A stretch of DNA of 64,000 nucleotides from NCBI RefSeq assembly GCF_036345255.1, contig NZ_CP107783.1, forward strand, positions 8,425,001 to 8,489,000, in the 5' to 3' direction. This document shows positions 13,359-34,695 of the stretch, piece by piece. The DNA is from Streptomyces sp. NBC_00569 (GTDB lineage: Bacteria; Actinomycetota; Actinomycetes; Streptomycetales; Streptomycetaceae). Made by a program: the position numbers and the translations under genes. Positions within the stretch are counted from its first letter, which is position 1. Each line of letters opens with the position of its first letter. The notes under the pieces are model-generated. The model saw only the letters and a list, made by a program, of their open reading frames with translations. It was not told the origin of the DNA and made no database searches.

Positions 13359-13379
13359 CTCATGCATGCGCTGCATGAG
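13359..13379. promoter_or_regulatory. Perfect inverted repeat, candidate operator (site 1)
   Basis: Arms CTCATGCA (13359-13366) and TGCATGAG (13372-13379) are exact reverse complements around the 5-base spacer TGCGC. It lies between the end of the CitE-like gene and the ATG of the aldehyde dehydrogenase operon, 93 bases upstream of the latter. Related repeats with the same spacing occur at 26147-26167 and 34675-34695, each in front of another catabolic operon. The regulator is unknown. Confidence 0.7.
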
Positions 13380-13438
13380 TGCATTCGAGGCTCGGTGGTC
13401 GAGGCGGCAGGCCGTCCGAACCGCCCGCGGCGCAGGGG

Positions 13439-14266
13439 TCAGTCCGTGTACCGCAGGATCGCGTGCGCCCGTGCGAGGACCGGTGCGTCGACCATGTGTC
13501 CGTCCACACGCGCGGCATTGCCGCCGCCGGCGGACTCCACGACGCGGCGGGCCCAGCGGAGCGTCTTCTCGTCGGGCCGGAAGGTGTCGTGGGTGACCGG
13601 GACTTGACGCGGATGGATGAGGAGCTTGGCCGTGAGGCCGAGCGCCTTGGCCCGTCTCAGGTCGTCGGTGAGAACGACGGCGTCGTCCAGCGCCGTCGTC
13701 ACCCCGTCGACAGGGCCCGGCAGTGCGGCGGCCCTCGACGCCAGGACGAGCGAGGAGCGGGCGTGGAGCATCGCATCCCACCCGGAGTCGGCACCCAGGT
13801 CGAGCGCGAAGTCGAGGTGCCCGAAGGCCAGTCGGTGGACTCCTGGGACGGCGGCGATGTCCTGTGCCCGGACCACCCCGAGAGCTGATTCGATCAAGGC
13901 GATGACCGGCACACGGGTGCGCTCGGAGACGGCGGTCAGCGATTCCGGCGATTCGGCCTTCGGACACATCACGGCGATCAGCCCGGGGGCGCCGGCCAGA
14001 GCCTCCAGATCCTGGGCGCCCAGGAGCTCCGAAGGCGTATTGATACGCACGCAAGCACATCCGCCGTTCGACAGCCAACTGACCGCCGAGGCACGCGCGG
14101 TGTCCTTCTGATCTGCCGCGACAGCGTCCTCGAGGTCCAGCACCACGAGGTCGGCGCCGGACGCGACCGCCTTGTCGAAGCGGGCCGGATGATCGGCGGG
14201 TACGAAGAGCAGCGACTTCGCGAGCTGAACGGATTGCGCCCGGTCCAAGTACGTCATCCCGATCAC
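13439..14266 (-). CDS. CitE-like HpcH/HpaI-family acyl-CoA lyase
   Basis: 275 residues, of the citrate lyase beta/malyl-CoA lyase group: SLLFVPADHPARFDKA at the N-terminus, LDLEDAVA (metal and substrate acid), ALIESALGV (metal-binding Glu) and FGHLDFALDLG. Members cleave 3-hydroxyacyl-CoA dicarboxylates such as malyl- or citramalyl-CoA into acetyl-CoA plus an oxoacid. The GTG at 14266 follows directly on the stop of the CoA-transferase gene (an ATG at 14257 is an alternative). With that transferase and the hot-dog hydratase at the left edge it could make a three-step activate-hydrate-cleave route like itaconate degradation. Substrate is inferred only. Confidence 0.8.
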   Translation of the reverse strand: MIGMTYLDRAQSVQLAKSLLFVPADHPARFDKAVASGADLVVLDLEDAVAADQKDTARASAVSWLSNGGCACVRINTPSELLGAQDLEALAGAPGLIAVMCPKAESPESLTAVSERTRVPVIALIESALGVVRAQDIAAVPGVHRLAFGHLDFALDLGADSGWDAMLHARSSLVLASRAAALPGPVDGVTTALDDAVVLTDDLRRAKALGLTAKLLIHPRQVPVTHDTFRPDEKTLRWARRVVESAGGGNAARVDGHMVDAPVLARAHAILRYTD

Positions 14267-15439
14267 CTATGCCAGTCCCGTGCCCTCGGGCGTCGCCGGT
14301 GGCAGCACCTCGAACTCGGCGAGCACGGCGTCCGTGTGCTCGCCGACATCCGGGACAGGGCCCATCACCGGCTCGGCACCCACGAAGGTCGCCGGGGGAA
14401 TGAGAGCGCTCAATGTCCCGGCCGGCGATGCGTACTCCTTCCAACGGTCCCGGGCCCGCAGTTGCGGATGGCTCGCCAGGCCGGCCATGTCCCGCAGCAG
14501 GGCATTGGCGATGCCCGCGGTCTCCAGCCGCTTTGCGACATCCGGGGCAGTATCGTCACGGAAGGCTTGCTCGATCTCGTCCTGCAGTTGCGCCGCGTTC
14601 TCCACGCGAGACGAGTTCCGGGCGAACCGTGGGTCGGCCGCGAGCGCCGGATCGTGGAGTATCTGCTCGCAGAAGGTGGCCCACTCGCGCTCGTTCTGGA
14701 GCCCGAGGAAGACCTGCTCGCCGTCGCCGCATTGGAACGGACCGTAGGGTGCGATCGCCGAGTGCCGCGCACCCGTTCGTCGGGGCGGAGTGCCGCCGTA
14801 CGTGGCGTAGTTGAGCGGAAAGCCCATCCACTCGGCGAGCGCCTCCAGCATGGAGATCTCGATCGTGACGCCCTCGCTGGTGCGCTGTCGCTGCAGGAGC
14901 GCGGCAAGGATGCCGGTGTAGGCGTACATGCCGGAGGCGATGTCCGCGATGGAGATCCCGACCTTCGACGGCTCGTCCTCGGTGCCGGTGATCGAGACCA
15001 GCCCGGCCTCGCACTGGACCAGCAAGTCGTACGCCTTCTTGTCGGTGTACGGGCCGCCGCTGCCGTAGCCGGAGATCGAGACGTGGATGAGGCCCGGATT
15101 TGCCGCCCGGAGCGTGTCGCTGCCCAGGCCGAGCCGCTCGGCCGCGCCGGGAGCGAGGTTCTGCACGAAGACGTCCGCGCGGCTCACCAGGGCTTTGACG
15201 GCCGCCCTGCCGTGCTCGGTCTTGAGGTCGAGTGCCACCGACTCCTTCGACCTGTTCAGCCAGACGAAGTGGCTGGCGAGTCCGCGTACGGTCTCGTCGT
15301 AGCCGCGGGCGAAGTCGCCGGGGCCAGGGCGTTCGATCTTGATGACCCGGGCGCCGAGATCGGCCAGCTGGCGCGTCGCGAAGGGGGCAGCGACGGCCTG
15401 CTCGAGAGAGACGACGGTGAGCCCGTCAAGGGGATTCAT
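14267..15439 (-). CDS. CaiB/BaiF family (class III) CoA-transferase
   Basis: 390 residues. Family features are LEQAVAAPFATRQLADLGARV, the RPGPGDFAR loop, FVWLNRSKESVALDLK, and the catalytic Asp region in AYDLLVQCEAGL. These enzymes move CoA between carboxylates, often from succinyl-CoA. The ATG at 15439 has AAGGA about ten bases upstream; an open N-terminal extension to 15469 looks spurious. It is followed without a gap by the CitE-like lyase and preceded by a flavin hydroxylase, so all three are likely one operon. It probably activates a dicarboxylate from ring cleavage. Confidence 0.88.
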   Translation of the reverse strand: MNPLDGLTVVSLEQAVAAPFATRQLADLGARVIKIERPGPGDFARGYDETVRGLASHFVWLNRSKESVALDLKTEHGRAAVKALVSRADVFVQNLAPGAAERLGLGSDTLRAANPGLIHVSISGYGSGGPYTDKKAYDLLVQCEAGLVSITGTEDEPSKVGISIADIASGMYAYTGILAALLQRQRTSEGVTIEISMLEALAEWMGFPLNYATYGGTPPRRTGARHSAIAPYGPFQCGDGEQVFLGLQNEREWATFCEQILHDPALAADPRFARNSSRVENAAQLQDEIEQAFRDDTAPDVAKRLETAGIANALLRDMAGLASHPQLRARDRWKEYASPAGTLSALIPPATFVGAEPVMGPVPDVGEHTDAVLAEFEVLPPATPEGTGLA

Positions 15440-15474
15440 TGAGCATGGTTCCTTCGTGTATCGCCGCACCGGGA

Positions 15475-16680
15475 TCAGTCGGCGAGCAGAGACGGGGTCT
15501 CCAACGTCTTGGTGAAGTACAGGCGCTCGGCGGCAAACTCGCGGTCACGGGACATCCGCCGGAACACTTCGAGATCCTTGTCGAGCTTGGCCGGATCGGT
15601 GGAGTGGAAGAGCAGCCGCTTGTTCGCGGAAGCCCGCGGACTCGCGTGATCGAGGAACGCCCGGCGGCGCATCTGCGCGTAGCCGTCGAGGACGGACTCC
15701 CCGGCGCGCCCCTGGACGACGGCCCCGAGAGCTTCCTGTAGGACGTACGAGTCGAAAAGCCCCATCGTCAGGCCGAGCCCGCCGGTGGGATTTGTGGCGT
15801 GCGCCGCGTCCCCGGCGAGGAGTACTCGGCCCGCGCGGTAAGAGGCCGCGCTGCGCTGGTGCATGCGGTACGGCGACATCGCCACGAGTTCGGTCTGCTG
15901 CGCGATCTCCTTCCCGAAGACATTGGCGAGGAATTCCGGCAGCCGCTCCTCGGCCGACCCCGCGGGCAGTGCGTCGTCCTCCATGTACGAGTAGCGCCAG
16001 AGCCCGTGCTCGCCCGACTCGTCGATCTTGGCGATGATCGCGCCGTAGACGTGGTCCACGTAGAACGTCGACTGCGCCCAGCCCGGCCGGTCGTCGGGGA
16101 AGCGGACATTGGCCGCGACGAACCGCTCGGGCCACGTCATCCCGTCGAAGCCCAGGGCCGACTCGGCGCGGACCCTGGAACCGGCACCGTCGGCGCCGAT
16201 GAGCCAATCGGCTCGGAGCGTCCGGTTCTGCTCCCCGGCGCGCACGGTGACATCGACACCGGCGTCATCCTGGGTCACCGCAGTGACCTCGTGACCCCAG
16301 AGCACTCGGACGTTCGCGAACGTTTCCAGGCGCTGAAGGATCACAGCGGCCAGGGCTCCCTGTCCCAGGTGCAGGTTGTGGGGGTACCGCACCTTTCCCT
16401 CCAGCGCCGACAGGCCGTACTCGATGACCTCGCCGGTGCGATGGACGCGGTAGGCGTAGTCCTGCTTCAGGAAGCCGGCGCTGCGGGCGTCGTCGAGCAG
16501 GTCCAGACGGGCCAGGCCGTCCAGGGTCGCCCAGTGATAGACGATGGCCCGCGGCGCATTCTGCAGAGCCGACGCCCGCTCGAGGATCGTGACGACAACG
16601 CCCTGTTGTGCCAGGCCGAGCGCATTGAGGAGTCCGGTCGGCCCGGCCCCCACCACGATCACCTGCTGTTCTGCTGACAC
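15475..16680 (-). CDS. FAD-dependent aromatic hydroxylase (class A flavoprotein monooxygenase)
   Basis: 401 residues with the three class A motifs: GAGPTGL near residue 11, DG in LIGADGAGSR, and GD in LLAGDAAHATNPTGGLG. It would hydroxylate a phenolic acid or phenol using NAD(P)H and O2. The GTG start has GGGAGAAC just upstream. It heads the operon with the CoA-transferase and CitE-like lyase and is divergent from a LysR gene 117 bases away, the usual arrangement for an inducer-responsive hydroxylase. At 401 residues it lacks the C-terminal thioredoxin-like domain of phenol hydroxylases. Confidence 0.85.
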   Translation of the reverse strand: MSAEQQVIVVGAGPTGLLNALGLAQQGVVVTILERASALQNAPRAIVYHWATLDGLARLDLLDDARSAGFLKQDYAYRVHRTGEVIEYGLSALEGKVRYPHNLHLGQGALAAVILQRLETFANVRVLWGHEVTAVTQDDAGVDVTVRAGEQNRTLRADWLIGADGAGSRVRAESALGFDGMTWPERFVAANVRFPDDRPGWAQSTFYVDHVYGAIIAKIDESGEHGLWRYSYMEDDALPAGSAEERLPEFLANVFGKEIAQQTELVAMSPYRMHQRSAASYRAGRVLLAGDAAHATNPTGGLGLTMGLFDSYVLQEALGAVVQGRAGESVLDGYAQMRRRAFLDHASPRASANKRLLFHSTDPAKLDKDLEVFRRMSRDREFAAERLYFTKTLETPSLLAD

Positions 16681-16797
16681 CAGTTCTCCCGTCTCGAGTG
16701 TCTCCGGCCGCTGTGGACCGTGAGCCGCATTTCACGATGCTGGAGACCGAGCCATAGGTCCAATGTCTGCAATTTGGTGCCCCGATACGCTGGATGC
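16681..16797. promoter_or_regulatory. Divergent promoter region, LysR/hydroxylase
   Basis: 117 bases between the divergent GTG of the flavin hydroxylase and the ATG of the LysR regulator. It holds an imperfect inverted repeat with CCAA at 16760-16763 and TTGG at 16774-16777, a spacing that would suit a LysR-type site. The assignment to that regulator is inferred from position only. Confidence 0.4.
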
Positions 16798-17751
16798 ATG
16801 GATCTCCGGAACATCAGGTACTTCCTCGCCGTGGCGGACACAGGCTCCATCACGGAAGCGGCGAAGACCCTGCACCTCTCTCAGCCGCCGCTGAGCATGG
16901 CAATGGCGAAGTTGGAGACGGAACTTGGCGTGACCCTGCTGAACCGGTTGCCGCGAGGTGTCTCGCTGACGCCTGCCGGCCGCTACCTGCAAGCCGCCGG
17001 GCTGCGCCTTGTCACGGAGGAACAGCGGCTCTCCGCGGCCCTGCAGGCGATGGGGCAAGGCCTTGAAGGTGAACTCAGAGTCGGCGCCGAGCCCATGGGC
17101 TTGTGGCGGGTCGTCAGCACACGCGTAGCGGAGTTCCTGGCCGAGCATCCCAGGGTGTCGCTCGACCTGACGGACGTGGCGCCCTGGGCCCAACTGGAGA
17201 ATCTCGCCAACGGCTACCTGGATCTGGCAGTGATCCCCGTGCTGCCGCAGGAACCACTGCCGCACATCAACGACGTTGAATTCGACGTCGACATCGTCGC
17301 CACTCTGCCGCTCACCCTCGTCGCGCCGAGCAGCTGGGGACTGAACGCCCAAAAGCCCCTGGCCCTCGCATCGTTGAAGGACAGGACGTGGATTCTTCCC
17401 GGGAGAGTGCCTGGTACGCGGAGCCTCTCCCGGCTGATCGACGACCGCTTCACCGCTGCGGGTGGCAGCCCCACGACCGTCATCCCGGTACCGACCATGC
17501 AGACCGCGGGGACACTGGTCGCCGCTGGGCTCGGTGTCTCGGTGATGAGCGACGAGATGGCCGCAACCCACCCCGGCGTCGACCGCATCCCGGTCGAGGG
17601 AGGCTGGCCCGAACTGCCGCTGGGCCTGGTGCGGCGACAGGGCGGGATCGTCACGCCCGTCGCCGCGAGGTTTGCCGCGCTCTTCGGAGTGGATGTCGTG
17701 GACGATCAGCCCGAACGAGCTGGTGAGAGGACCCACGGACGGACTACGTAG
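16798..17751 (+). CDS. LysR-family transcriptional regulator
   Basis: 317 residues: an N-terminal winged helix-turn-helix (DLRNIRYFLAVADTGSITEAA, then LSQPPLSMAMAKLE) and a C-terminal substrate-binding domain. I chose ATG 16798, which puts the HTH at the usual position; the frame is open further upstream. It is divergent from the flavin hydroxylase operon, which it probably controls in response to an aromatic or acid inducer. Its last 15 codons and the hairpin over its stop are duplicated as a remnant at 20140-20288. Confidence 0.9.
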   Translation: MDLRNIRYFLAVADTGSITEAAKTLHLSQPPLSMAMAKLETELGVTLLNRLPRGVSLTPAGRYLQAAGLRLVTEEQRLSAALQAMGQGLEGELRVGAEPMGLWRVVSTRVAEFLAEHPRVSLDLTDVAPWAQLENLANGYLDLAVIPVLPQEPLPHINDVEFDVDIVATLPLTLVAPSSWGLNAQKPLALASLKDRTWILPGRVPGTRSLSRLIDDRFTAAGGSPTTVIPVPTMQTAGTLVAAGLGVSVMSDEMAATHPGVDRIPVEGGWPELPLGLVRRQGGIVTPVAARFAALFGVDVVDDQPERAGERTHGRTT

Positions 17752-17768
17752 ACCCTCGATCTACGTGG
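17744..17768. repeat. Hairpin across the lysR stop codon, duplicated downstream
   Basis: CTACGTAGA (17744-17752) and TCTACGTGG (17760-17768) form a stem with one mismatch around a 7-base loop, and the lysR stop codon lies inside it. The same hairpin with the same flanks is at 20264-20288, exactly 2520 bases away. About 110 bases (17680-17789 and 20200-20309) are clearly homologous. It may be a terminator carried along in a duplication. Confidence 0.7.
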
Positions 17769-17802
17769 CGGATACGTACTCCTACGGCTGGTGGCCCTCA
17801 GT

Positions 17803-20429: not shown

Positions 20430-21383
20430 ATGCTGCTGCGCGAACTCGAATGGTTCACGACCCTGGCCGAGACCCAACACATGACGGAAGCCTCGCTGCG
20501 CCTCAGCATCAGCCAGCCGACGCTGTCGCGCGCCCTGGCCAGACTCGAGCGCAAACTGGGCGTCCAGCTCTTCGACCGTCACCACAGCGGACTGCGTCTG
20601 AACAAGTACGGGGAGATCTTCCACGCGCACGCCGTCCGGGCGATGAGTGAGGTCGACAGGGGCGAGGAACGGATCGCCACCCTGGTCGACCCGCAGCGAG
20701 GGTCCGTATCGCTGGGATTCATCCATTCCTTCGGCGGCTGGCTGGTTCCCGACCTCCTGAACGGTTACCGAAAGCTCGCCCCCAGAACCTCTTTCGAGCT
20801 GCACGGAGCGGCCTGCGATGCCGTGGTGGACGAGGTGCGTGACGGAACGGTCGACATCGGATTCGTCGCGCCCCAACCTGGCGCCGACGACGTGCAGTGG
20901 ACCCCTCTCGGGCGCGAACGGCTGTGTCTGTCGGTTCCGCCGGGCCATGCCCTCGAAGGACGCGATCAGGTGGCGATCGCCGAGCTGGCCGCGGAGCCGA
21001 TGGTGGTCCTCAAGACCGGGTTCGGCTTGCGGCAGATCACTGACAGCCTGTGCGGGCAGGCAGGATTCCGAGCCTGCATCGCCATCGAGGTGACAGAACT
21101 GTCCACCCTGCACGCCCTGGTGGCAGCGGGGATGGGCGTGGCAGTCGTACCCGCCTCGTGGCCCGAGGGCATGCCCGGCTCCACCGCCATCACCGTCCCG
21201 TTCAGCGATCCGACCGCCTTCCGGGACTACGGGGCGGTCACCAGGCGAGGGGGGCCGGGCAGCAGGGCTGCACAACGATTCCTCGGATACGTCGCGGGCC
21301 GTGCCCATCCGGCAGCCACACCGTGCCGAGCGGCAGACGAGGGGACAGGGGCGGTCGCGCTCGCCCCGGCAATCAGCGTCTGA
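20430..21383 (+). CDS. LysR-family transcriptional regulator
   Basis: 317 residues with an N-terminal HTH (LLRELEWFTTLAETQHMTEASLRLSISQPTLSRALARLE) and a LysR substrate-binding domain (IGFVAPQPG, LVAAGMGVAVVP). The ATG follows CAGGGAGAA. The C-terminal 20 residues are an Ala/Pro-rich tail. It lies upstream of, and in the same direction as, the LuxR-ATPase gene, and beyond that faces the hydroxyquinol dioxygenase genes. It could control those or an unlinked target; there is no divergent partner gene. Confidence 0.9.
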   Translation: MLLRELEWFTTLAETQHMTEASLRLSISQPTLSRALARLERKLGVQLFDRHHSGLRLNKYGEIFHAHAVRAMSEVDRGEERIATLVDPQRGSVSLGFIHSFGGWLVPDLLNGYRKLAPRTSFELHGAACDAVVDEVRDGTVDIGFVAPQPGADDVQWTPLGRERLCLSVPPGHALEGRDQVAIAELAAEPMVVLKTGFGLRQITDSLCGQAGFRACIAIEVTELSTLHALVAAGMGVAVVPASWPEGMPGSTAITVPFSDPTAFRDYGAVTRRGGPGSRAAQRFLGYVAGRAHPAATPCRAADEGTGAVALAPAISV

Positions 21384-21478
21384 TCCGTACCGGACGGCAG
21401 CGACGCGGCATCCGGCCGGGACGGGACGGCCATTGATATCTGCAGGAGTCTTGGCCCAGAAGGCCAGGTCGGCAGAGA

Positions 21479-23821
21479 ATGGCCCGCATGAGCTGGCACG
21501 CAGTCCCCTCTGGCCCCCCGGCGTCATGGCCGACCCAGTTGTTCGGACGGGACCGCGAGCTCGCCGATGCCCGTGGCCTGATGGCGTCCAGTCGCCTCGT
21601 GACGCTCACCGGCCCCGGTGGTGTCGGCAAGACCTCCCTTGCCGCCGCGATGGCCGGCACGCTCGAGCGGGCGTTCAAGGACGGGGTCTGGTTCGTGGAG
21701 CTGGGTGCTCAGCGCAGCTCGGAGACCGTCGCCGAATGGGTGGCCACCGGCCTCGGGCTGAGCACGGCACCCGTCGAGGATGCCGAGGAGCAGCTCCGTC
21801 GGCATCTGACCGGCCGGTCGGCTCTGCTGGTCCTGGACAACTGCGAGCACGTACTGCCCGGTTGCCAGCGCCTGGTGGCCAGGCTTCTCGGCGCCTGCGA
21901 CGAGTTGCGCGTGCTGACGACCAGCCGGGAGCCGTTGCGGTTGCGGGGCGAACGCGCCGTCGTCGTCCGTCCGCTGCCCGTACCGCCGGTCGGCGGGGAG
22001 AGTACCGTGGGCGAACTGCGCGCGTTTCCGGCCGTCGCTCTGCTCGAGGCCCGGGCCAAGTCCGTCAACGACCAGTTCGAGATCACCGAGCGGGAGCTGC
22101 CGTCGGTGGTGGAACTGGTGGCCCGCCTGGACGGTATGCCGCTGGCCATCGAGCTGGCTGCGGCGAGGTTGAGGTCGCTGTCGATCCGCGAACTGCTCGA
22201 CCGCATCAACGACCGGTTTACGCTCCTCAACCGCGGCGACCCGACCGCCTCGCCGCACCACCGCTCGCTCGACGCCATGGTGCGGTGGAGTTACGACCTG
22301 TGTACACCGCAGGAGCAGAGGTTGTGGACCCGGCTGGCAGCCTTCACCGGGAGCCCCGACCTCGCCAGCATCCAAGCGGTGTGCGGGTTTCCGCCGCTGG
22401 AAGCCACCGAGCTGCTCGACGCACTCGACGGGCTGGTCGCCAAATCGATCCTCCTGCCCGAAATCCGGAACGGGGAAATGCGCTACCGGCTCCTGGAGAC
22501 CCTGCGGGAGTTCGCCCTGGTGCACGGTCGGCCGAGCGAGGACCACGACCGTGCCCGCCGTGCTCACGTCGATCACTACCGATCCTGGGCCACCCGGACC
22601 GCACAGAGCTTCTTCGGACCCGACCAGACCGAGTCTCTCGAGCGACTGGCATCGGACTTCGCCAATCTTGAACTGGCCTTCGAGGGCTCGCTCGGGGAAC
22701 CGGGCCGTACGCGCGAAGCGCTCCAGCTCGCTTCCAGCCTCAGCGTCTACTGGATCACCGGCCACCTGCGTGAGGGCCGTCGTTGGCTGGCGCAGGCACT
22801 TCAGGCGGACACCGCGCCTTCCGTCGAGCGCGGCAACGCACTCTGGGTGGCCGCCGCCGTAGCGGCACTCCACGGAGAACTGCCCCTGGCCAAGGAGCAC
22901 CTCCTCGCCGCCGGCGACATCGTACGGTCGACCGGCGACCCCCGACTGACGGCTCACGTCGCCACTTGGAGCGGCCAAGTAGCCCTGACCTCAGGCGACT
23001 TGCCGATAGCCCGGCATGCCTTCGAAACCGCACGGGTGGGCCATGCAGATCTCGCCGACCCGGAGGGGCTGCTGATGACGCTCTTCCTGCGCGCATTCCT
23101 CAAGAGCGCAGAGGGTGACCAAGAAGGCGCCGCGGAGTCGTGCCGCGAGGCCATCGACCGCAGCGAAGACCTCGGCGAGACCTGGGGCCGCTCCTACGCC
23201 GTGTGGGTCCTTGCCTATGACGCCTGGACACGCCATGACCTGGCCGCGGCCGAGGAGTGGGCCAAGCAGAGCCTGGAACTCAAGCTCGCCTTCCGGGACG
23301 ACGTCGGCACAGCGCTCGTCATCAACCTGATGGCCGGCATCGCCCTGGAAAGGGGCGAGGCCACGAAGGCGGCCCAACTCCTCGGCGGCGTCGAAGCCCT
23401 GTGGTCCCGGCTCGACACCAGGACCGCGGCTTTCGGTCCCGTACTCGGCTCCCAGTACAAAGCGATCGAGAGCACCGTCGAGGAAAAGCTCGGCCATGCC
23501 ACCTTTCAGCGCCTGTACGAGGAGGGGCGCCGCCTCGACCCGGACGGGCGAACAAGGCTGGCGCTCGACCACATCACCGAGCCTGACAAGGACCGAAGCG
23601 AAGCCGCTCCCGCACCCGACCTGCTCACCGCTCGGGAGAAGGAGGTCGCGTCGTACTTGGCTGATGGCCTCAGCAACCGTGCGATCGCCGCCGCGTTGGT
23701 GATCTCCCCGCGTACGGCCGAGGTTCACGTGGAGCACATTCTCGCCAAGCTCGAGGTCCGCTCACGGGCCGAGGCCGGCATGTGGGCTGCCCGGACGCTC
23801 GGAGGGTCACCGCACGCCTGA
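21479..23821 (+). CDS. LuxR-family regulator with NB-ARC/AAA-type ATPase domain
   Basis: 780 residues. The order is an ATPase domain with Walker A GPGGVGKT at 45-52 and Walker [10 protein letters not shown] near 118, a winged-helix relay, a TPR-like helical middle (repeated Ala-rich helices at about 400-650), and a C-terminal LuxR HTH ([25 protein letters not shown]...[15 protein letters not shown]). This is the architecture of ATP-dependent activators in Streptomyces. Its 3' end overlaps the converging hydroxyquinol dioxygenase gene by 15 bases. A 58-base fragment of it is found at 17803-17860. Likely a local activator; inducer unknown. Confidence 0.9.
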
Positions 23822-24712
23822 CGGCGCGGAAGGTGCGAGGACAATGTCGAACCTCACCCGTGTCCAGTCTCCGTCCAGCAGACGGCCGTCGGGCGCCGGT
23901 GTGCCGGCCGGCTGCCTTACGAACTCCTTGACCAGCGACTCCTTCACGCCGAAGACCGCGTCCGAGGCGAGCAACCCGTCCCCGCGCACGAAGATATGAG
24001 TCACCAGCCGACGGGCACCCGGCGCGGTCACCATGAAGTGCAGGTGCGACGCGCGCATGGGTGACCGGCCGGCGGCCGCCAGCATCCGGCCTACCGGACC
24101 GTCGTGCGGAATCGGATACGGCGTGGGCGTGACCGCCCAGAAGCGGTAGGTGCCGTCCTTGTCTGTGGACAGCTGGGCCCTTCCTGCCCGGTGGTCCTCG
24201 GCGTACTGCACATCGTAGAACCCGTCGTCATCGGCCTCCCACACGTCGAGGCGCGCGTCCGAAACGGGATTGCCTTCCGCGTCGGTGACAGTGCCCTCCA
24301 CCCAGCACGGCTGTCCTTTGGCGCCGAAGGTGATGTCACCCCCGTTGTCGATGCGCGGCGCGTCCTCGACGAAGAACGGCCCAAAGACGGTGGCCTCAGT
24401 GGCATTGCCGTGCGCTTCGTTGTTCATGGCGATGGTCTGCATCGATGCGCCGAGCACGTCGGACAGCAGGACGAACTCCTGCCGTGTGGCGTCGGTGATG
24501 TGTCCCACGGCGGTCAGGAAGTCGATGCCCGACTGCCACTCCGCCTCGGTGAGCCGGACCTCGCGCAAGAAGCCGTGCAGATGCCGTACGAGCGAACGCA
24601 GTACCTGGTCAAGCCGAGGGTCCTGGCACCCGTCGAAGGAGCGCAGCACACGCTCGACGAGTTCGTCCTCGCGGGTCCGCTGTTCGTCGGAGATGTCAGG
24701 GGAGAACGTCAT
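23807..24712 (-). CDS. Hydroxyquinol 1,2-dioxygenase (intradiol)
   Basis: 301 residues: the N-terminal helical dimerisation domain of the catechol/hydroxyquinol dioxygenase family and the intradiol beta-sandwich. The four iron ligands are all visible: Tyr166 (DDDGFYD), Tyr199 ([11 protein letters not shown]), His223 and His225 (SHLHFMV). The [13 protein letters not shown] segment and sequence character fit hydroxyquinol rather than catechol dioxygenases. It would open hydroxyquinol to maleylacetate, the substrate of the reductase at 3589-4653. I prefer ATG 24712, 12 bases after AAGGA; ATG 24724 is possible. It overlaps the upstream ferredoxin reductase gene by 17 bases, so the two are translationally linked. 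Confidence 0.88.
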
Positions 24713-26000
24713 GGCAGATCGCATTCCTTATGCCGATGTCGTGGAGTCGGGGACCGGAGCGCGCCGGGACACGGCCGGTACTGACTGCGGCACCGACGTG
24801 TGCCAGTGCGGCGTCCCACGCCACCCCGTCCGTCAGCATCGCGCGCACCTCGTCGAAGAGGTACTGGTGCTCAAAGGCAAGGGCGCCGTGCAGAACGTTC
24901 TCGCGGCCGAACAGAGCGACCTCGCCCTCGCCCGTCCGCTGGGTGACGACCCGCTCGTCCCCATTGAGGAACCCGGTGAGTTGAATGCGCACTCCGTGTT
25001 GGTAGGAGCGCCGGTACGGAATGCCGGCATACGAATCGGGGGCTCCGCGGGTGATCGACCGCGCGGCGTTGAGGCCTGCGATGCGGCCCTGGTCGGCGGC
25101 GTTCGTCCATTGCTCGCCCCGCATGCGGGTGCCGTAGCGAGGGTTGGACCAACGGGCGGCGTCCCCGGCCGCAAAGACATGGTTGTACGCCTGTAGCCCC
25201 GCGTCGCAGACGATGCCGTCCCGGAGAGCAAGTCCGGACGACTCCAGCCATTCAGTTGCGGGCCGGTGCCCATCGGCGATGACGATCACGTCGGCCGGCA
25301 CCAGCGTCCCGCTGCTCAGCCGCAGGCGTCGGCGCAGGCCGTCCTTGACGACCTCGACGACTCCGTCACCGAAGCAGGGCGCGACTCCGGCCCGATGGTG
25401 CAGCGCGGCATAAGAGTTCACCGCGACGGCGCCGAAACGTCCCATCGGCTCGGGCGAGCCATCGACAAGCGACACCGTGCGGCCCGCGCGCCGGAGCCGC
25501 GACGCCGTCTCGCCACCGGCCAGTCCCGCTCCGATGACGGCGACGGCCAGGGAGGGGTCGGCCAGCACGGCGCGCAACGCCGACACTTCTTCGCGTTGCC
25601 CGACCGTGTAGACCCGTGACTCTTCGGTGAGGAGTGCCGGGATCGTGGGTGCGCAGCCGCAGGCGATGACCAGCGCACGGTAGGAGACGCTGCCGTTTCC
25701 GACCAGAATCCGCTGGTTGGCGAGGTCGAGTTCGCTCGCCCGGGCTCCCAACCGAAGGTCCACGCCCTGGCTGCCGAGCTGACTCAAGGCACGCAGTGTG
25801 GTCGAGTCGAGGTCGGTCGGGCCGGTGAGTCCCGTCCTGTCAGCCAGCGGCAGGTTGTAGCGGGGCCGTACACGTTCACCGATCACCATGACCGAGAGCC
25901 CTCGGCCCATCTTCGCGACCGCATGAGCCGCGTGCAGCCCGGCCACGGAGGCGCCCACGACGACGATGTCCCGGGACAGAGCCCCGGACACCTCAGCCAT
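24696..26000 (-). CDS. Ferredoxin reductase-like FAD oxidoreductase, divergent
   Basis: 434 residues. FAD motif [12 protein letters not shown], central NAD motif [10 protein letters not shown], and the C-terminal reductase domain with [12 protein letters not shown]. It is a paralogue of the protein at 747-1952, but the conserved PPLSK stretch is replaced by LPLADRTG and WSDQ by RRSYQ, and it has a C-terminal extension of about 40 residues. These changes may mean a new electron acceptor or loss of reductase function. The ATG at 26000 follows GCGGAGG by about ten bases. It heads the operon with hydroxyquinol dioxygenase; a candidate operator lies 147 bases upstream. Confidence 0.75.
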
Positions 26001-26397
26001 CTGCCTCACACCTCCGCGGCGCGGTCAGGGCCCCTTCATCATGGGCATTGCGGGAGTCGGGCACGGTTCTCCTCCGGTGAGCGAGCGAGGTAGACCAATC
26101 GTGCGCTGACGGACTCGCGATGTGAATCACCGGAAACTTCCGTCGCTTCATGCACCTGCTGCATAGGTACAGGTAACGGATCCGACGGACATCCCGGCGG
26201 GTAACGCCCCGATCACGAAGCCGAGTTGCTCCCTATGCCTGGCTGGCCGCGACGGCTTACGTTCCCCGCGAAAACCAGCCGCGTGACGTGAGTTGAGTGT
26301 CCGTTGCGGCTCCGAAGAATCTGTCCTGCCTTCCGGGCCCTCTGCGTGCCGCTCTCTGTGGTCGCGCCATGACTGCCGCGACCTTGGAAGAGGAACT
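26001..26397. other. Intergenic region between divergent units
   Basis: About 400 bases between the minus-strand ferredoxin reductase and the plus-strand metallo-beta-lactamase-fold pseudogene. Apart from candidate operator site 2 I see no gene; short open frames here do not resemble proteins. Confidence 0.5.
26147..26167. promoter_or_regulatory. Inverted repeat, candidate operator (site 2)
   Basis: TTCATGCA (26147-26154), spacer CCTGC, TGCATAGG (26160-26167). The inner ATGCA/TGCAT arms are exact. Same arm core and same 5-base spacer as the sites at 13359-13379 and 34675-34695. It stands 147 bases upstream of the ferredoxin reductase/hydroxyquinol dioxygenase operon. Confidence 0.6.
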
Positions 26398-27559
26398 GTG
26401 TGCACCGTCCCGGGAAGATCCCAGACGGCCGGGGCAACCCGGCGTTCGCTGCTCATCGGCGGGGCTGCCGTCAGCGCAGGTAGTGTTTTCGCCGCCGGCC
26501 CGGCAGTCGCTCAGGCTGATCCCCGTTCTGCATCGGACCACCGAACACGACTTGTCCTTCTGGGCACGGGAGGCGGTCCGACCTGGTGGGGAGGCCGCTC
26601 CCCGCGGATGGGGACCGCCTCTGCGGTGGCCGTGGGAGACCGGTACTACCTTGTTGATGCGGGATCAGGTGTCGGCGGACGACTGCACGATTCCGGGCTC
26701 GGGGAACCGGGTGTCCTCGATACGCTCGCCGCGGTCTTCCTCACCCACCTCCACTCCGACCACGTCGTCGACTTGAACAACCTGCTGTCCTTCGGGGCCT
26801 TCAACGGCCTGGAGAGTTCCGGCCGTTCAGTGCCGGTGTGGGCCCCGGCAACAGAGGTTCCCTGCCCCCGCTGTACGGTCAACCGCACGCACCGGAACCA
26901 GTCGCCCCGGACAATCCCACACCGGGCACCCGCGAGATGCTCGAGCTGATGGCCCGTACGTATGCCACGGACTTCAACGACCGCGCGTTCGACAACCGCA
27001 AGCCGCTCCCTTCGCAGCTCCTCGAGGGCAGGGACGTTCCGATACCGCTGCAGTACCTGAAGGATCCCAACGGGCAGCCGCACCCTCGCATGAGCCCGGT
27101 GACCTTCTACGAGGACGACAGGGTCCGGGTTTCCGCGACGCTGGTGCAGCACGCGCCGGTCTTTCCCGCCCTGGCCTACCGGTTCGACACCGACGATGGT
27201 CGGTGGTCTTCTCCGGAGACACCGGCCCCTCGGCCAACCTCGTCGAACTCGCCTCGGGCGCAGATGTCTTGGTGCATGAGGTCATTGCCCGCGCGTACGT
27301 GGAGCAGCAGTACCCGCCGCCGCGCAGCGAGTCCGAGGAGGGGCTCGTCGCCCACCTGCTGGCTTCCCATACCGCGGACGATGAGGTCGGTACGGTCGCA
27401 GAGCAGGCAGGCGTGGCTACCCTGGTGCTCTCGCACCTCGTCCCTGCTGACTGGCCCGAAAGCCGGTGGAAGCGAGACGTGCAGGGACTCTCCGGGCGCC
27501 TGATCGTCGGCCATGACCTCGACCAGTTCGGGATCGGACCGAGGGCGTCGGGCCGATGA
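26398..27559 (+). pseudogene. Exported metallo-beta-lactamase-fold hydrolase with two frameshifts
   Basis: The GTG at 26398 (AGAGGA upstream) opens a protein with a Tat-like signal (ATRRSLLIGG then a hydrophobic stretch ending AVAQA), the fold start VLLGTGGGP and the metal motif THLHSDHVVD. Near 26840-26842 a GGG run appears to lack one G, and coding continues in the next frame (GPGNRGSLPP...). Near 27196-27198 another base is missing, and coding continues in the third frame with VFSGDTGPSANLVELA and a C-terminal THLLASHT-like region to 27559. Restoring both bases would give one continuous RNase Z/arylsulfatase-like MBL protein of about 385 residues. Either a recent pseudogene or two sequence errors. 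Confidence 0.75.
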
Positions 27560-27677
27560 CTGCGTGGCCGGTACTGCCGTTGCGGAGTGAGTGCTGCATT
27601 GGGGACGGACAGGCTCTTCGGGCCGGGGAGTGTCTAATCAACGGTTCTGCCAAGATTTTCGTAGGCGTTGATCGTCG

Positions 27678-27770
27678 GTGGCGGTCGGTCAGCTGATTGG
27701 GATGCTGGTCGATCGTGCCCGTACGGAAGGTCTGCAACTGACCGGTGAGGGCGGGCTGTTGCAGCGGAGG
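27678..27770 (+). mobile_element. N-terminal scrap of an IS256-type transposase
   Basis: The translated stretch LIGMLVDRARTEGLQLTGEGGLLQ, read here only as the two parts LVDRARTEGL and LTGEGGLLQ, matches my recollection of the start of IS256-family (mutator-type) transposases. After that, similarity ends and no catalytic DDE part follows. The rest of 27560-27901 shows no gene. Confidence 0.5.
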
Positions 27771-27901
27771 TATCGGCTCGGGCCTCCTCGCGGGGGCCCG
27801 CCTGCTCGAACCGCCCTCGCTCGGAAGGGGTCGAAGCAGAAGCCGGGGTGTGTACGGCATGTGTGCCGGCCAGGCGGCGAAGGGCGCCTGACCGGAGGTT
27901 C

Positions 27902-29760: not shown

Positions 29761-31122
29761 TCATACGGGCTCGTGCCGTTGGTCCGTGGAGGCCGCGGAC
29801 GTCCATCGGTAGGCGAACAGGCCGGTGACCAGGGCGGCGAGGGCGAGTCCTGCCAGGAGCAGGGCCACGCCGAGCCAGTCGCCGTCGTGTCCGGCGAGAG
29901 CGGTGGCGACCAGCGGGATGAAGCCGCCGACCGCGCCGGCCAGGGCGTAGCCGAATCCGGCGCCGCTGTAGCGCACGGAGATGTCGAACATGCCGGTGAA
30001 CCAGGTCTGTTGCACCGCGGTGGAGATGTTGTGGCCGAGGTTGATCAGGGCGAAGAAGGCCAGTGTCATCAGCACCAGGGAGCCCGAGCGCAGGGACAGG
30101 AAGAACGGGACCGCGGCCGCGGCGGCGCAGAGGGGGCCGGCGACGTAGAACCAGCGGACTCCCACGCGGTCGGCGAGCTTGCCGTAGACGGGGGTGAGGA
30201 ACGAGGCGAGGGCCAGCGCGATCATCGACGCGGCCAGCACCGTGCTCGTCGGGTGGTCGGTGTAGTTCTCCACGTAGACGAGGGAGAAGGTGAAGGCGAT
30301 GTAGAAGCAGCCCTGATCGACGAGGCGCATGCCGATCACCGCGAGGATCCGCAGGGGCGAGGTCTTCAGCGCCACCCAGAGCGGTGCCCTGGTCTGCTCC
30401 CGCTTCTCCTTGGCCTCGGCGAACTCGGTGGACTCCGCCACGCCCGTGCGGATGAGGAGGCCGGCGACGGCGAAGACGAGGCTGATCAGGAAGGGGATGC
30501 GCCAGCCCCAGGACTCGAACTGGGCCTGTGTGGTGAGCGCCTGCATCAGGGAGAAGACGGCGGTGCCGAGCAGCAGGCCGATGAAGGAGCCGACCTGGAC
30601 GCCGCTGGCGAGGAAGTTCTTCTTCCCCGGCGGGGCGCTTTCCACGGCCATCAGGGCGGCGCCGCCCCACTCTCCGCCGACCGCCACGCCCTGGATCGCA
30701 CGCAGCAGCACCAGGCAGATGGGGGCTGCGATGCCCATCGCCGCGTAGGTGGGAAGTGCGCCGATCGCGGCGCTGGCCAGACCCATGATGAGCACGGTGA
30801 GGAACAGCATCTGCCTGCGCCCGATGCGGTCACCGAAGTGGCCGAAGATGGCGCCGCCCAGCGGCCTGAAGACGAATCCGACGGCGAACGAGGCCATGGA
30901 GGCGAGAAGCCCGACGAACTCGTCGTGCGAGGGGAAGTACTGCGGCCCGAAGATCGTCGCGGCGGCGATGCCGTAGAGGAAGAAGTCGTACCAGTCGATC
31001 ACGGCACCGGTCATGCTGGCCGCCGCCCGGCGTCGCGGTGAGGCGCCACCAGGGGGGTGCGGGCTGTCCATGGAGACAACTGTGGTCTCCATGGGCCCTG
31101 CGTGAGAGTTGTTGTGGGGCAT
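29761..31122 (-). CDS. MFS transporter, metabolite:H+ symporter (MHS) family
   Basis: 453 residues with 12 predicted hydrophobic segments. MHS signatures are VIDWYDFFLYG in the first helix, FRPLGGAIFGHFGDRIGRR between helices 2 and 3, and RAIQGVAVGGEWGGA in helix 4. Family members import organic acids such as shikimate, proline/betaine, citrate or aromatic acids with protons. The ATG at 31122 has TTTGGAG upstream; an internal ATG at 31092 is less likely. Its promoter region is shared with the divergent isomerase/SDR pair and holds a perfect 16-bp palindrome. Confidence 0.9.
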   Translation of the reverse strand: MPHNNSHAGPMETTVVSMDSPHPPGGASPRRRAAASMTGAVIDWYDFFLYGIAAATIFGPQYFPSHDEFVGLLASMASFAVGFVFRPLGGAIFGHFGDRIGRRQMLFLTVLIMGLASAAIGALPTYAAMGIAAPICLVLLRAIQGVAVGGEWGGAALMAVESAPPGKKNFLASGVQVGSFIGLLLGTAVFSLMQALTTQAQFESWGWRIPFLISLVFAVAGLLIRTGVAESTEFAEAKEKREQTRAPLWVALKTSPLRILAVIGMRLVDQGCFYIAFTFSLVYVENYTDHPTSTVLAASMIALALASFLTPVYGKLADRVGVRWFYVAGPLCAAAAAVPFFLSLRSGSLVLMTLAFFALINLGHNISTAVQQTWFTGMFDISVRYSGAGFGYALAGAVGGFIPLVATALAGHDGDWLGVALLLAGLALAALVTGLFAYRWTSAASTDQRHEPV

Positions 31123-31207
31123 CGTTGCTCCAAACCTGGGCGGCCATCGATCACTGCACGGGCCGTGAGAGTCGAGTCCTGCTGGGCAGGAAGTCATTGA
31201 CACTGAG

Positions 31208-31223
31208 ATGACTACGTAGTCAT
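31208..31223. promoter_or_regulatory. Perfect 16-bp palindrome, candidate operator
   Basis: ATGACTACGTAGTCAT is its own reverse complement. It lies in the 172-base divergent region between the MHS transporter (86 bases from its ATG) and the isomerase-like gene (72 bases before its GTG). A single regulator could control both directions; the nearby LacI protein is the first candidate. Confidence 0.65.
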
Positions 31224-31294
31224 TCTGGTTCGGGCAGCGTAGGAACGTCATCTGCGCCGCGTCAATACCCGCACTCGATTGGTGGTTCAAATAC

Positions 31295-32149
31295 GTGGAC
31301 GTCACGTTCGGGCTCGCTCACTTGTCGGCCCTGCATCTGGATCCGCCCTCCCTGGTCACCGCGGCGAGCGAGGCCGGCTTTGCCGCGGTCGGTGTGCGGG
31401 TCTTCCCCGCCACCGGGACCGAGGCCCGCTATCCGATCGCGGCGGGGGCGCCGATGACAGCCGAGACGGTTCGGCGTTGTCGCAGCACCGGTGTCTCGGT
31501 CCTGGACGTCGAGGCCTTCACCCTCGACGGAGCGCGCGGGCCCGCCGAGTGGATGCCCGCGCTGGAGGCCGGGGCAGAACTCGGCGCGCGCATCCTGAAC
31601 GTCATCGGGGGAGACCCCGATTCGTCCCGACTGCAAGACACACTTGCCGTGTTGGCGGCCGACGCGTCCCGCTTCGGTATCCGCCCCTGCCTCGAACCGA
31701 TCTCCTACCAGTGCGTCGACACCGTCGCGAAGGCCGCGCGGCTGGCCGAGGGGACAGGGGCCGGGATCATGCTCGATGTCCTGCACTTCGTGCGCGCGGG
31801 CGGCACGGTCGCCGACCTCGAAGCGCTGCCCACCGGGGTCGTCGAGGTGATCCAGCTCTGCGACGGCCCGGCCACGGTCCCCGACCTGCCCACACCGACG
31901 GAACTCCCGCTCGGGCAGAGCGTCGACGGTTCCTCGCGGCAGATCGAGTCCCGGGCGCATCGCCTGACACCCGGATCGGGGGTCTTCCCTCTGAGCGACA
32001 TTCTGCGCGCGCTACCGAATGTGCCGATCAGCGTCGAGGTACCCAGCGCCGCCCGGGTCGCGCGCGAAGGCGCCGGAGCGCACCTCAAGGATCTCCACCG
32101 GGCCACCACCACACTGCTCACCTCCCCCGACACTGCAGGAGTCCGCTGA
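31295..32149 (+). CDS. Sugar phosphate isomerase/epimerase-like TIM-barrel protein
   Basis: 284 residues of the xylose isomerase-like TIM-barrel (AP endonuclease 2) superfamily: FGLAHLSALHLDPPS at the start, NVIGGDP, CLEPISYQ (metal Glu) and GIMLDVLHFVRAGG (metal Asp and His). The superfamily includes hexulose isomerases and also 3-dehydroshikimate dehydratases, so the fold does not fix the reaction. The GTG start lies in the divergent promoter with the MHS transporter. Its stop overlaps the next ATG by one base. With an SDR and a KstD-like dehydrogenase it could process a cyclitol or shikimate-like substrate. Confidence 0.75.
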   Translation: MDVTFGLAHLSALHLDPPSLVTAASEAGFAAVGVRVFPATGTEARYPIAAGAPMTAETVRRCRSTGVSVLDVEAFTLDGARGPAEWMPALEAGAELGARILNVIGGDPDSSRLQDTLAVLAADASRFGIRPCLEPISYQCVDTVAKAARLAEGTGAGIMLDVLHFVRAGGTVADLEALPTGVVEVIQLCDGPATVPDLPTPTELPLGQSVDGSSRQIESRAHRLTPGSGVFPLSDILRALPNVPISVEVPSAARVAREGAGAHLKDLHRATTTLLTSPDTAGVR

Positions 32150-32916
32150 TGACCGAGCTCGTCGACACCTCGGCCCCCACAACCGACTACTGGCCTGGCC
32201 GCTACCGCGACCAGGTCGTCCTGGTCACCGGCGCGGCGGGCGGACTCGCCGCACCCACCTGCCGGCGCCTCGCCCGTGAAGGTGCCACCGTGATCTGCAC
32301 GGACGTGGCGGGCGACGGGGACGGCTCCTCTCCCGAGACATGCCTGTCCCTTGATGTCACCGACCCGGAAGCCTGGTGCCGGGTCGTCGCCGACATCATG
32401 CGCACACACGGGCGGCTCGACGGCGCGCTCCTGGCCCACGGAGTGCAAGGCCCCGAGACACCGATCGACGAGACACCCAGGGACGGCTGGCAGCACACCC
32501 TCGCCATCAACCTCGACGGCTGTCTGCACGGCCTCAGCGCCGCCCTGCCGGCGATGCGCGCACGCGGCTACGGACGTGTCACCATCCTGTCCTCCATAGC
32601 CGGCCGCGAAGGCAACCCGCACCAGGCCGCCTACTCCGCGTCGAAGGCCGCTGTCATCTCCCTGGTGAAGACCGCGGCAAAGGAGTACGCACGCGACGGC
32701 ATCACCGTCAACGCCGTCGCCCCCTCGATGATGCGGACCCGCATGCTCGAGGACCTCAGCGAGGAACGCAATGCCGCGCTGCTCGCCCGGGTACCGATGG
32801 GCAGGGTCGGCACACCGGAGGAATTCGCCGCGCTCGCGGCCTGGCTGCTCTCGCCCGAGGCCAGCTACACCACAGGACAGACCCTCGACCTGAGCGGCGG
32901 GCGCAACACCGCCTGA
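32149..32916 (+). CDS. Short-chain dehydrogenase/reductase (SDR)
   Basis: 255 residues. The cofactor motif is TGAAGGLAAP, in which the last conserved Gly is Ala, and AHG replaces NNAG. The catalytic Ser (ILSSIAGR) and YSASK are intact. It is translationally coupled to the TIM-barrel gene (TGATG overlap) and ends 12 bases before the converging LacI gene. It probably oxidises a secondary alcohol of the transported substrate. Confidence 0.85.
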   Translation: MTELVDTSAPTTDYWPGRYRDQVVLVTGAAGGLAAPTCRRLAREGATVICTDVAGDGDGSSPETCLSLDVTDPEAWCRVVADIMRTHGRLDGALLAHGVQGPETPIDETPRDGWQHTLAINLDGCLHGLSAALPAMRARGYGRVTILSSIAGREGNPHQAAYSASKAAVISLVKTAAKEYARDGITVNAVAPSMMRTRMLEDLSEERNAALLARVPMGRVGTPEEFAALAAWLLSPEASYTTGQTLDLSGGRNTA

Positions 32917-32928
32917 TCCTCTGTTCGT

Positions 32929-33930
32929 TCACGCCGGCGCGGCGGTCGTGCCCCGCTCGATCAGTCGCACCGGGAAGACCGTCTGGGAGAACTCGCTGTC
33001 TGCCCGGCCCTCGAGCCGGTCGATGAGCACGTCCACCGCCTTCGTCGCCATCTCCGTGAACGGCTGGTGCACCGTGGTGAGGTTGATCATCGACCACCGA
33101 GCCGGTTCCGAGTCGTCGAACCCGACCACGGACAACTCCTCGGGGACCCGGATCCCGAGCTGCGACGCCGCATCCAGCGCCGCGAACGCGAAAGAGTCCG
33201 TCGAGCAGAAAATCGCGGTCGGTCGCGGCTCCACCGCCAACAACGAACGGGCCATCTCCAACCCGCTCTCGTGATCGATGGGCCCTCGCCGCACGTACTC
33301 CTCCGGGAGATCCAGGCCACGTTCCCGGAGCGCGTCCCGCATGCCGTCCTCGCGCTCACGGCCATTGCTCACCGTGCGCGGGACCGACAGCATCGCGATC
33401 CTGTGGTGTCCCAGCTCGCCCAGGTGATGTGCGACCAGTGCACCGCCCGCTCGGTCCTCGCTCATGACGGTGTCCGCGCGCAGGTCCGAGAAGTCGCGAC
33501 TGAGGAGCACCATCGGCATGTGACGTGCCGCCACCTGGGCCACTCCCGGGGAGTCGTCCGTCGCGGACATGAAGATCAGCCCGTCGACGATCGCCTCGTT
33601 CAGGACCTCCAGGGCGTCCGCGTCGTGCGTTTCCTCAGGGTCGCGGATGAGGGCCATCCGATAGCCGCGCGCCGCCGACCGCTCCTGGATCGCCGCGATC
33701 GCCGGCGGGTACAGGGGGCTCCTCAGGTCGGCCACGACCACGCCGAGCGCCTTCGCTCGACGCGTGACCAGCATCCGGGCCGCGGCATCGGGCCGGTATC
33801 CGAGCGCCTGCGCCGCGTCGATCACGCGTCGACGGGTCTTCTCCGTCACGGAGGGATGTCCGCGCAGCGCCCGGGACACCGTCGTCTGGGAAAGACCCAG
33901 CTGCCGTGCCAGGTCGACACTCGTCACCAT
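32929..33930 (-). CDS. LacI-family transcriptional regulator
   Basis: 333 residues: an N-terminal LacI HTH (TSVDLARQLGLSQTTVSRALRGHPSV, quoted as TSVDLARQLG and TVSRALRG) and a periplasmic-binding-like effector domain with LGVVVADLRSP and VVGFDDSEPA. Start ATG 33930 places the HTH at the usual position; GTG 33957 is in frame. It converges on the SDR gene and probably controls the divergent MHS/isomerase promoter. Its effector is likely a sugar-like or polyol compound, as for the family. Confidence 0.9.
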   Translation of the reverse strand: MVTSVDLARQLGLSQTTVSRALRGHPSVTEKTRRRVIDAAQALGYRPDAAARMLVTRRAKALGVVVADLRSPLYPPAIAAIQERSAARGYRMALIRDPEETHDADALEVLNEAIVDGLIFMSATDDSPGVAQVAARHMPMVLLSRDFSDLRADTVMSEDRAGGALVAHHLGELGHHRIAMLSVPRTVSNGREREDGMRDALRERGLDLPEEYVRRGPIDHESGLEMARSLLAVEPRPTAIFCSTDSFAFAALDAASQLGIRVPEELSVVGFDDSEPARWSMINLTTVHQPFTEMATKAVDVLIDRLEGRADSEFSQTVFPVRLIERGTTAAPA

Positions 33931-34230
33931 GGTATGAGGATACGGCTCCACCTGCACGCCCCTGCAGCCCGCTCTCCGAAGTCGGTCTCACCGTGTGTTG
34001 TGGTCGGCGCGTGAGGCTGATGCGAACCATGCGGTGTGCGACAGGTGTCACCGACAGCCTCTCCGTCCCCGACGAGCTGCTTACCACCATGTGCACACCG
34101 GCAGTGCACTCACGTTCAGGTGGCCGGCGCCACTATGGGCCGGGAGACCGTGTTGAAGGCCGAGACTGAGGCACCCTCTTCCGGGGCCCTCGATGGCGGG
34201 ACGTGCCCGAGTCGCCTGATCCCGCCCGGG
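33931..34230. other. Gene-free stretch beside the IS21 remnant
   Basis: About 300 bases between the LacI gene and the IS21 end. It contains the LacI promoter region; no open frame here resembles a known protein and I see no clear structure. Confidence 0.4.
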
Positions 34231-34590
34231 TGTCCACGGACAGTGTGACGTCCGGGTGAGCGGACAGTTCGGATCTTGGTGGGCGGACAACTCATCTCCC
34301 GTTGCGGTATGACTTTTCGTCGCCCGGTTGGCGGGTCAGCCGTTCGGGGCGAGGGGCTCGACTCCCTGCCCGCTGGTGGCCTGCGTCAGTCGCAGCGAGG
34401 AGCCTTCGGTGAGCACGATGTGAGCGTGGTGCAGGAGCCGGTCGACGGCGGCGGTGGCCAAGGTCTTGGGCATGATCGAATCGAAGCCTGAGGGATGAAG
34501 GTTGCTCGTCACGATCACCGAGCGGCGCTCGTAGGCGGCATCGATCACGCGGTAGAACGCCTCGGCGGCGGCTTGCCCGCAGGGCAGCAT
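34231..34590 (-). mobile_element. IS21-family remnant: 3' part of istB plus right end
   Basis: On the minus strand, 34590-34336 encodes the C-terminal third of an IstB ATP-binding helper: AAYERRSVIVTSNLHPSGFD, MPKTLATAAVDRLLHHAH, and a LTQATSGQG tail. Beyond its stop, 34231-34290 carries several GGACA/TGTCC copies, as in the repeat-rich ends of IS21 elements, starting with TGTCCACGGACAG. The istA gene and the N-terminal part of istB are missing, so it cannot move by itself. Confidence 0.75.
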
Positions 34591-34674
34591 GCGGGTTCGT
34601 CTCGTCGTTCTCGCAAGCGGCCCCCAGATCGGCGTGGACGTCATGGTCCGGCCCTCCGACCTCGCGGAAGCGGC

Positions 34675-34695
34675 GTCATGCGTCTGATGCATCAC
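34675..34695. promoter_or_regulatory. Inverted repeat, candidate operator (site 3)
   Basis: GTCATGCG (34675-34682), spacer TCTGA, TGCATCAC (34688-34695); six of eight arm positions pair. Same layout as sites at 13359-13379 and 26147-26167. It lies 129 bases upstream of the two-component monooxygenase operon. A TATACG stretch that could be a -10 element follows about 30 bases downstream. Confidence 0.55.

Follow-up and report, generated by a model that had tools for sequence, protein, structure and literature searches.

A 64,000-nucleotide stretch of Streptomyces sp. NBC_00569 (NZ_CP107783.1, positions 8,425,001 to 8,489,000; hereafter the window, numbered from its first letter) carries the inverted repeat ATGCR-N5-TGCAT upstream of three separate catabolic operons. 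This raises the question of whether the three operons answer to one regulator and, if so, to which of the regulators encoded nearby. A sequence-only reading of the window had proposed a single regulator and a local regulon, and this remains the best reading, because like sites recur at orthologous promoters in two related gene clusters. In our opinion, the repeats are likely to be the recognition sites of one LysR-type transcriptional regulator (LTTR), LysR2 (20430-21383, + strand), which is predicted to act as an activator.

The repeat stands exactly as first quoted at three places. Site 1 (13359-13379, - strand) precedes operon 1, whose first gene encodes an aldehyde dehydrogenase; site 2 (26147-26167, - strand) precedes operon 2, encoding a ferredoxin reductase-like protein and an intradiol dioxygenase; site 3 (34675-34695, + strand) precedes operon 3, encoding a two-component monooxygenase. 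All three are intergenic and lie on the upstream side of the first genes, within the 93-147 bases given by the sequence-only reading: 93 bases for site 1, 147 for site 2, and 129-135 for site 3. The corresponding ATG codons are at 13266 (-), 26000 (-), and 34824 or 34830 (+); genes were called with a simple caller, so that start codons are approximate.

Several counts bear on whether such an arrangement could be fortuitous. The pattern ATGCRNNNNNTGCAT has five matches at three places in the window (13362-13376, 26150-26164, and 34678-34692), two of the places being counted on both strands. In 100 dinucleotide shuffles of the window, ATGCR-N5-TGCAT was found 0.14 times on average and at most twice. 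In the 10.32-Mb genome, the exact motif stands at 17 places; six of these mirror one another near the ends of the chromosome. Three of the 11 non-mirrored places fall within the 21.3-kb stretch spanned here (binomial P 1.4e-6 for this named stretch and about 7e-4 over all such stretches, both values being post hoc). A motif occurring as often inside genes as in promoters had been named as a ground for abandoning the regulon; in fact, four of the 11 places are within genes, the other seven being intergenic or placed at a called start. Near each end of the chromosome, two exact copies of the motif lie inside 51 bases (L261:566-616 and its mirrored end); these paired copies are probably part of terminal hairpins.

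Further evidence comes from related genomes. Among 392 genomes of the genus searched at the DNA level, two, G292 and G372, have operon 3 at 87-88% identity; none of the others listed does. When the first gene products of operons 2 and 3 were searched as proteins in 199 genomes, the matches listed included no close orthologue; the best of these outside the own genome reached 47% for the monooxygenase and 41% for the reductase. In G292, operon 3 is found within 70 kb together with the greater part of operon 1, an operon 4 described below, the LysR1 gene (see below), the dioxygenase, a LAL (LuxR-type ATPase) gene, and LysR2, with 66-91% protein identity and partly rearranged; all four operon 3 products have orthologues there, in the same order, at 82-86%. 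LysR2 is 74% identical in G292 and in G372, and the LysR2 gene and the LAL gene that follows it (20430-23821 together) remain neighbours in both genomes.

Like sites recur at orthologous promoters in both of these related clusters. At the operon 3 promoter, site 3 reads ATGCGCCTGATGCAT in G292 and ATGCGTCTGATGCAT in G372, identity extending to 14 of 15 core columns. G292 also has a site 2-like dyad, ATGCACCTGACGCAT, upstream of its dioxygenase orthologue, although the gene order differs there; in the G372 stretches retrieved, no dioxygenase gene was found. The related sites suggested a widened operator, ATRCR-N5-YGYAT. Four window places fit it, all in gaps, as compared with a mean of 0.23 and a maximum of one in 30 block shuffles of the window; since the pattern was picked after the related sites had been seen, these counts are partly post hoc. 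No place fits it in the flanking 100 kb to the left and 40 kb to the right, and the three places in the G292 stretch are all at orthologous promoters. The fourth window place (16785-16799, - strand) reads ATGCATCCAGCGTAT towards the operon of a flavin adenine dinucleotide (FAD) monooxygenase, and shares bases with the start codon of LysR1 (16798). It is kept in the same place in G292 and G372 as ATGCGCGGAGTGTAT, and the regulon probably has a fourth site between the FAD-monooxygenase operon and LysR1. A further dyad, ATGCGTGTGCGGCAT, lies between the coenzyme A (CoA)-transferase and lyase genes of G372 (L344:972) and is one base off in G292 (stretch 43654); it was not found in the window.

Which class of protein reads these sites is suggested by their form. 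ATGC-N7-GCAT contains T-N11-A, the form of LysR-type recognition sites (as given in the part of PMC5603801 drawn on here), and at each of sites 1-4 (ATGCR-N5-YGYAT) T-N11-A lies inside an imperfect inverted repeat. A LysR protein is thus suggested as the reader, and context must tell which one. Three LysR genes were present among the called window genes scanned: LysR1 (16798-17751, + strand), divergent from the FAD-monooxygenase operon; LysR2, with a LysR helix-turn-helix and a substrate domain (PF00126, E 1.8e-18; PF03466, E 5.7e-48); and LysR3 (58914-59801), divergent from a thiolase gene. LysR2 falls short of the NCBIfam cut-offs of GltC (190/350 bits), CynR (154/277), BenM/CatM (90/600 and 88/580), and PcaQ (112/304). 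LysR3 was rejected as a reader, its own box being ATAAG-N5-CTTAT. That box lies in the LysR3/thiolase gap (58914-59886), is exact at five of 30 loci from the LysR3 search (the closest orthologues), and is nearly so at one more.

The sequence-only reading had stated no known link between the motif and any regulator in the window. Such a link can be drawn for LysR2, through the operators of its own relatives. Distant LysR2 orthologues (57-59%) in genomes G210 and G359 are divergent from a CoA-transferase gene, and beside them lie ATGCG-N5-CGTAT dyads. The only ATRCR-N5-YGYAT places per 40 kb, two in G210 and one in G359, adjoin LysR2; a second dyad at the LysR2 start in G359 misses the pattern. 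In G372, moreover, LysR2 is present in a second, divergent copy, the promoter gap of which contains two such dyads. Further relatives stand beside MFS exporters and carry TCAT[CG]CGTCCAATGCATG[GA]-like sites. One belongs to the own genome (4317047-4317910): it is 38% identical to LysR2, and the TCATGCGTCCAATGCATGA in its gap matches 13 of the 15 core letters of site 3. Within four mismatches, the TCATGCGTCCAATGCATGA 19-mer is found at 25 of 30 loci from the LysR2 search (a single criterion, superseding a looser count of 26 of 28), and at 0 of 30 LysR3 and 0 of 5 LysR1 loci by the same test, which covered 400 base pairs (bp) upstream of the match to 59 bp into it. The five loci that fail are LysR2 itself, G025, L147 (weak, six mismatches), G106, and G148. 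In a tree, LysR2, its orthologues, and the exporter-linked regulators group together (98/94), with LysR1 elsewhere and with a long-branch warning. A scan of genome contigs with LysR2 returned 16 loci, the best (43%) in Tsukamurella, where the dyad is imperfect. In G106 and G148, the LysR gene follows a FUSC-type exporter gene of the same strand, and upstream of the exporter gene lie two dyads, CATGCGTCCAATGCCTG and ATGC-N7-GCAT, 31 bp apart (L170:12733-12778; L171:12839-12884).

The flanked form TCATGC-N7-GCATGA occurs at exactly five genomic places, site 1 and four others. Each of the latter (three, if a duplicated locus is counted once) occupies the gap that separates a LysR gene from a divergent neighbour, which speaks for a LysR-type reader. 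The TCATGCC-N5-GGCATGA copies at 8354266 and 8382125 looked like further members of the regulon but were rejected: they are one inverted duplicated locus in the divergent gaps of other LysR genes, and the place at 2126160 likewise belongs to another LysR gene with its own divergent neighbour. The duplicated segment is 3,371 bp long and inverted, with 99.97% identity between 8353315-8356685 (L047:8315-11685) and 8379724-8383094 (L048:14724-18094). It encodes a LysR protein, a carbon-nitrogen hydrolase, and an amino acid permease; in both copies, TCATGCC-N5-GGCATGA lies in the divergent gap.

A second sequence element accompanies three of the four window sites. At sites 1, 2, and 3, GAA-N1/2-TTC begins 8-9 bp past the dyad on the gene side, about 20 bp away; its background frequency is 0.86% per 17-bp intergenic stretch. 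At site 1 (13346-13353, - strand) it reads GAACATTC, with the same letters in G292 and G372. At site 2 (26133-26140, - strand) it reads GAAGTTTC and was not found at the G292 dioxygenase promoter. At site 3 (34702-34708, + strand) it reads GAACTTC and is kept in both related genomes. Overall, it is present at nine of the 15 sites compared, and it is a candidate activation site. The dyad centres are approximately 100-160 bp from the start codons, and the element lies about 20 bp gene-ward. A sigma-70 and terminator scan of 13200-13480 found none.

From this layout, a mechanism can be proposed. A LysR2 tetramer would place one dimer on the dyad ATRCR-N5-YGYAT and the other on the weaker, gene-proximal GAA-N1/2-TTC, the centre of which would lie about 20 bp beyond the dyad, near -35. 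LysR2 may turn transcription on when an aromatic intermediate of the pathway is bound as inducer. In this way, LysR2 would link ring hydroxylation (operon 3) to ring cleavage (operons 1 and 2), and would also join O-demethylation and one-carbon (C1) recycling (operon 1) as well as the operon for FAD monooxygenase, CoA-transferase, and lyase (operon 4).

A number of observations weigh against assigning the sites to LysR2. Site 3 is not exceptional in its promoter, where nine of 177 15-mers are equally conserved. Site 1 reads ATGCACCAGATGAAT in G292 and G372, with one clean half kept and TGAAT in place of TGCAT. The core dyad ATGC-N7-GCAT was rejected as a genome-wide mark, with 51 places versus 75 for the reversed control, and as a general mark it is weak. 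Its intergenic share is only mildly raised (29 of 48 places, the 51 minus three mirrored end copies, versus 13 of 35 of the 75 control places; P 0.047), and its intergenic places are beside a LysR gene in five of 29 cases versus 0 of 13 in the control, which is not significant (P 0.30). To these must be added the post hoc choice of the widened operator. The second element is absent from six of the 15 sites, namely site 4 (strict form), G210_pre, G359_pre, sites 2 and 4 of G292, and site 4 of G372. The gap upstream of LysR2 itself has no such dyad in the window or in G292. Judged by the wider pattern, the dyads at the LysR2 relatives of G025, G106, G148, and Tsukamurella are all imperfect. Lastly, the LysR loci compared share ancestry, and their counts are not independent.

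An extension of the LysR2 proposal concerns the history of site 4. Possibly, the operator outlived a change of regulator: LysR1 took its place beside the FAD-monooxygenase/CoA-transferase operon, the LysR2-type dyad stayed at the LysR1 start codon, LysR2, from its present place elsewhere in the cluster, came to control both LysR1 and that operon as a cascade, and the operator spread to three further promoters. The basis for this account, which we regard as doubtful, is that in G210 and G359 the dyad lies at or near the start of a LysR2 orthologue divergent from a CoA-transferase operon. G372, in which LysR1 was lost but the dyad was kept, would be a natural test.

Alternatively, LysR1 itself might read all the sites. 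It is the LysR protein adjoining site 4, and the G292 cluster encodes it at 80% identity. In G372, however, an assembly of 91% completeness and 8% contamination, LysR1 has been reduced by deletion to a remnant (residues 1-43 and 201-306; next best match 35%), while LysR2 and sites 1, 3, and 4 persist. Genome G237 presents the reverse case: LysR1 (62%), the FAD monooxygenase, the CoA-transferase, and the dioxygenase are present, with no LysR2 above 38%, but its 20 kb contain no ATRCR-N5-YGYAT place, only two overlapping one-mismatch dyads beyond the LysR1 gene. The site is absent from all four of the nearest other LysR1 relatives among the search matches, and distant relatives have no dyad in common. 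LysR1 is thus an unlikely reader and possibly a further target.

The exporter-linked paralogue at 4317047-4317910 could read the sites in place of LysR2 or share them with it, since its own site differs from site 3 at two of 15 letters and the recognition helices of the two proteins are closely similar (QSTLSRALVRLE versus QPTLSRALARLE). Its family, however, is found in nearly all genus genomes listed, whereas the sites track the rare cluster and LysR2; moreover, sites 1, 2, and 4 match the form found at LysR2 orthologues no worse than that of the paralogue. We consider this quite unlikely. Highly improbable is a reader from among the other regulators of the cluster, the LAL protein (21479-23821) or a LacI or TetR protein (w32929, w38958). 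The LAL gene is conserved beside LysR2 in G292 and G372, but no LAL orthologue is encoded in the 40-kb stretches of G210 and G359 that carry dyads, the genes called in the 70-kb stretch of G292 include no LacI or TetR orthologue, and a T-N11-A dyad is the form of LysR proteins. That the likeness is due to chance, or to three unrelated LTTR boxes alike through the common T-N11-A, is just as hard to credit: the core shows no genome-wide enrichment and such letters are favoured in gaps, but the shuffles, the clustering, and the recurrence at orthologous promoters and LysR2-subfamily loci all oppose it.

Under the preferred assignment to LysR2, the regulon would comprise four operons, named here by Pfam and, for operons 1 and 3, also by NCBIfam. 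Operon 1 (4734-13266, - strand), the co-transcription of which is suggested by spacing and strand, encodes an aldehyde dehydrogenase, a SnoaL-like protein, an FAA hydrolase, an extradiol-type protein of the glyoxalase fold, an NmrA-like protein, a GcvT-like O-demethylase, a formyltransferase, and FolD. Operon 2 (23807-26000, - strand) encodes a Pyr_redox_2 ferredoxin reductase-like protein and the intradiol dioxygenase. Operon 3 (34830-38052, + strand) encodes a monooxygenase of the acyl-CoA dehydrogenase fold (HsaA-like), a flavin reductase, a small open reading frame (36577-36885), and an NmrA-like protein; operon 4 (13439-16680, - strand) encodes the FAD monooxygenase, a type III CoA-transferase, and an HpcH/HpaI-type lyase. 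The names “hydroxyquinol” dioxygenase and “O-demethylase” of the sequence-only reading are plausible but unproven, both proteins being far under the NCBIfam cut-offs of the named models: the GcvT-like protein scores 198/800 bits for DesA and 185/580 for LigM and may be called only a relative, and the dioxygenase is under the cut-offs of all models matched.

Two regions near the sites deserve mention. Beside site 2, 1.9 kb (26010-27900) are without a called gene; a short open frame within them (27203-27559, + strand), which presumably resembles the end of a metallo-beta-lactamase-fold protein, is perhaps a remnant. Just upstream of site 3, 34333-34601 has 77-88% matches to short stretches in G055, G163, G141, G258, and other genus genomes, and stops shortly before the start of the G292/G372 alignment; it is possibly a mobile-element remnant.

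These results yield a candidate regulator, an operator, and a gene list for what looks like a rare pathway, one in which two-component hydroxylation, folate-dependent O-demethylation, and ring cleavage of both the intradiol and the extradiol type seem to be combined. The LysR2/operator pair could act as a sensor for methoxylated aromatics, and the subfamily operator predicts the binding site of an exporter-adjoining LysR protein in many genomes of the genus. A literature search, judged by titles and the starts of abstracts, found no paper on the LysR2 regulator or its operator; the comparisons made here argue well for a new LTTR regulon of a known kind.

Among systems that resemble it, the LysR regulators that accompany MFS or FUSC exporters in this genus belong to the same tree subfamily and have a near-identical dyad, but these are local LysR/exporter gaps with 38-42% identity to LysR2, whereas LysR2 would serve a multi-operon catabolic regulon. 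DesR of Sphingobium SYK-6, which responds to vanillate and syringate, controls the folate-linked O-demethylation of methoxyaromatics according to the part of PMC6888825 used here; this resembles the chemistry suggested for operon 1, but DesR is of the MarR family and acts in another host on other genes. The closest architecture is that of PnpR/PnpM in Pseudomonas sp. WBC-3, for which the portion of PMC5603801 consulted describes one LysR-type regulator, three separate catabolic operons (pnpA, pnpB, and pnpCDEFG), and a common T-N11-A-type inverted repeat, with a recognition binding site near -65 and an activation binding site near -35. That system differs in its operator (GTT-N11-AAC), its para-nitrophenol pathway, and its host. 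A conserved activation binding site sequence is not described for it in that portion of the source, whereas here GAA-N-TTC recurs at three promoters.

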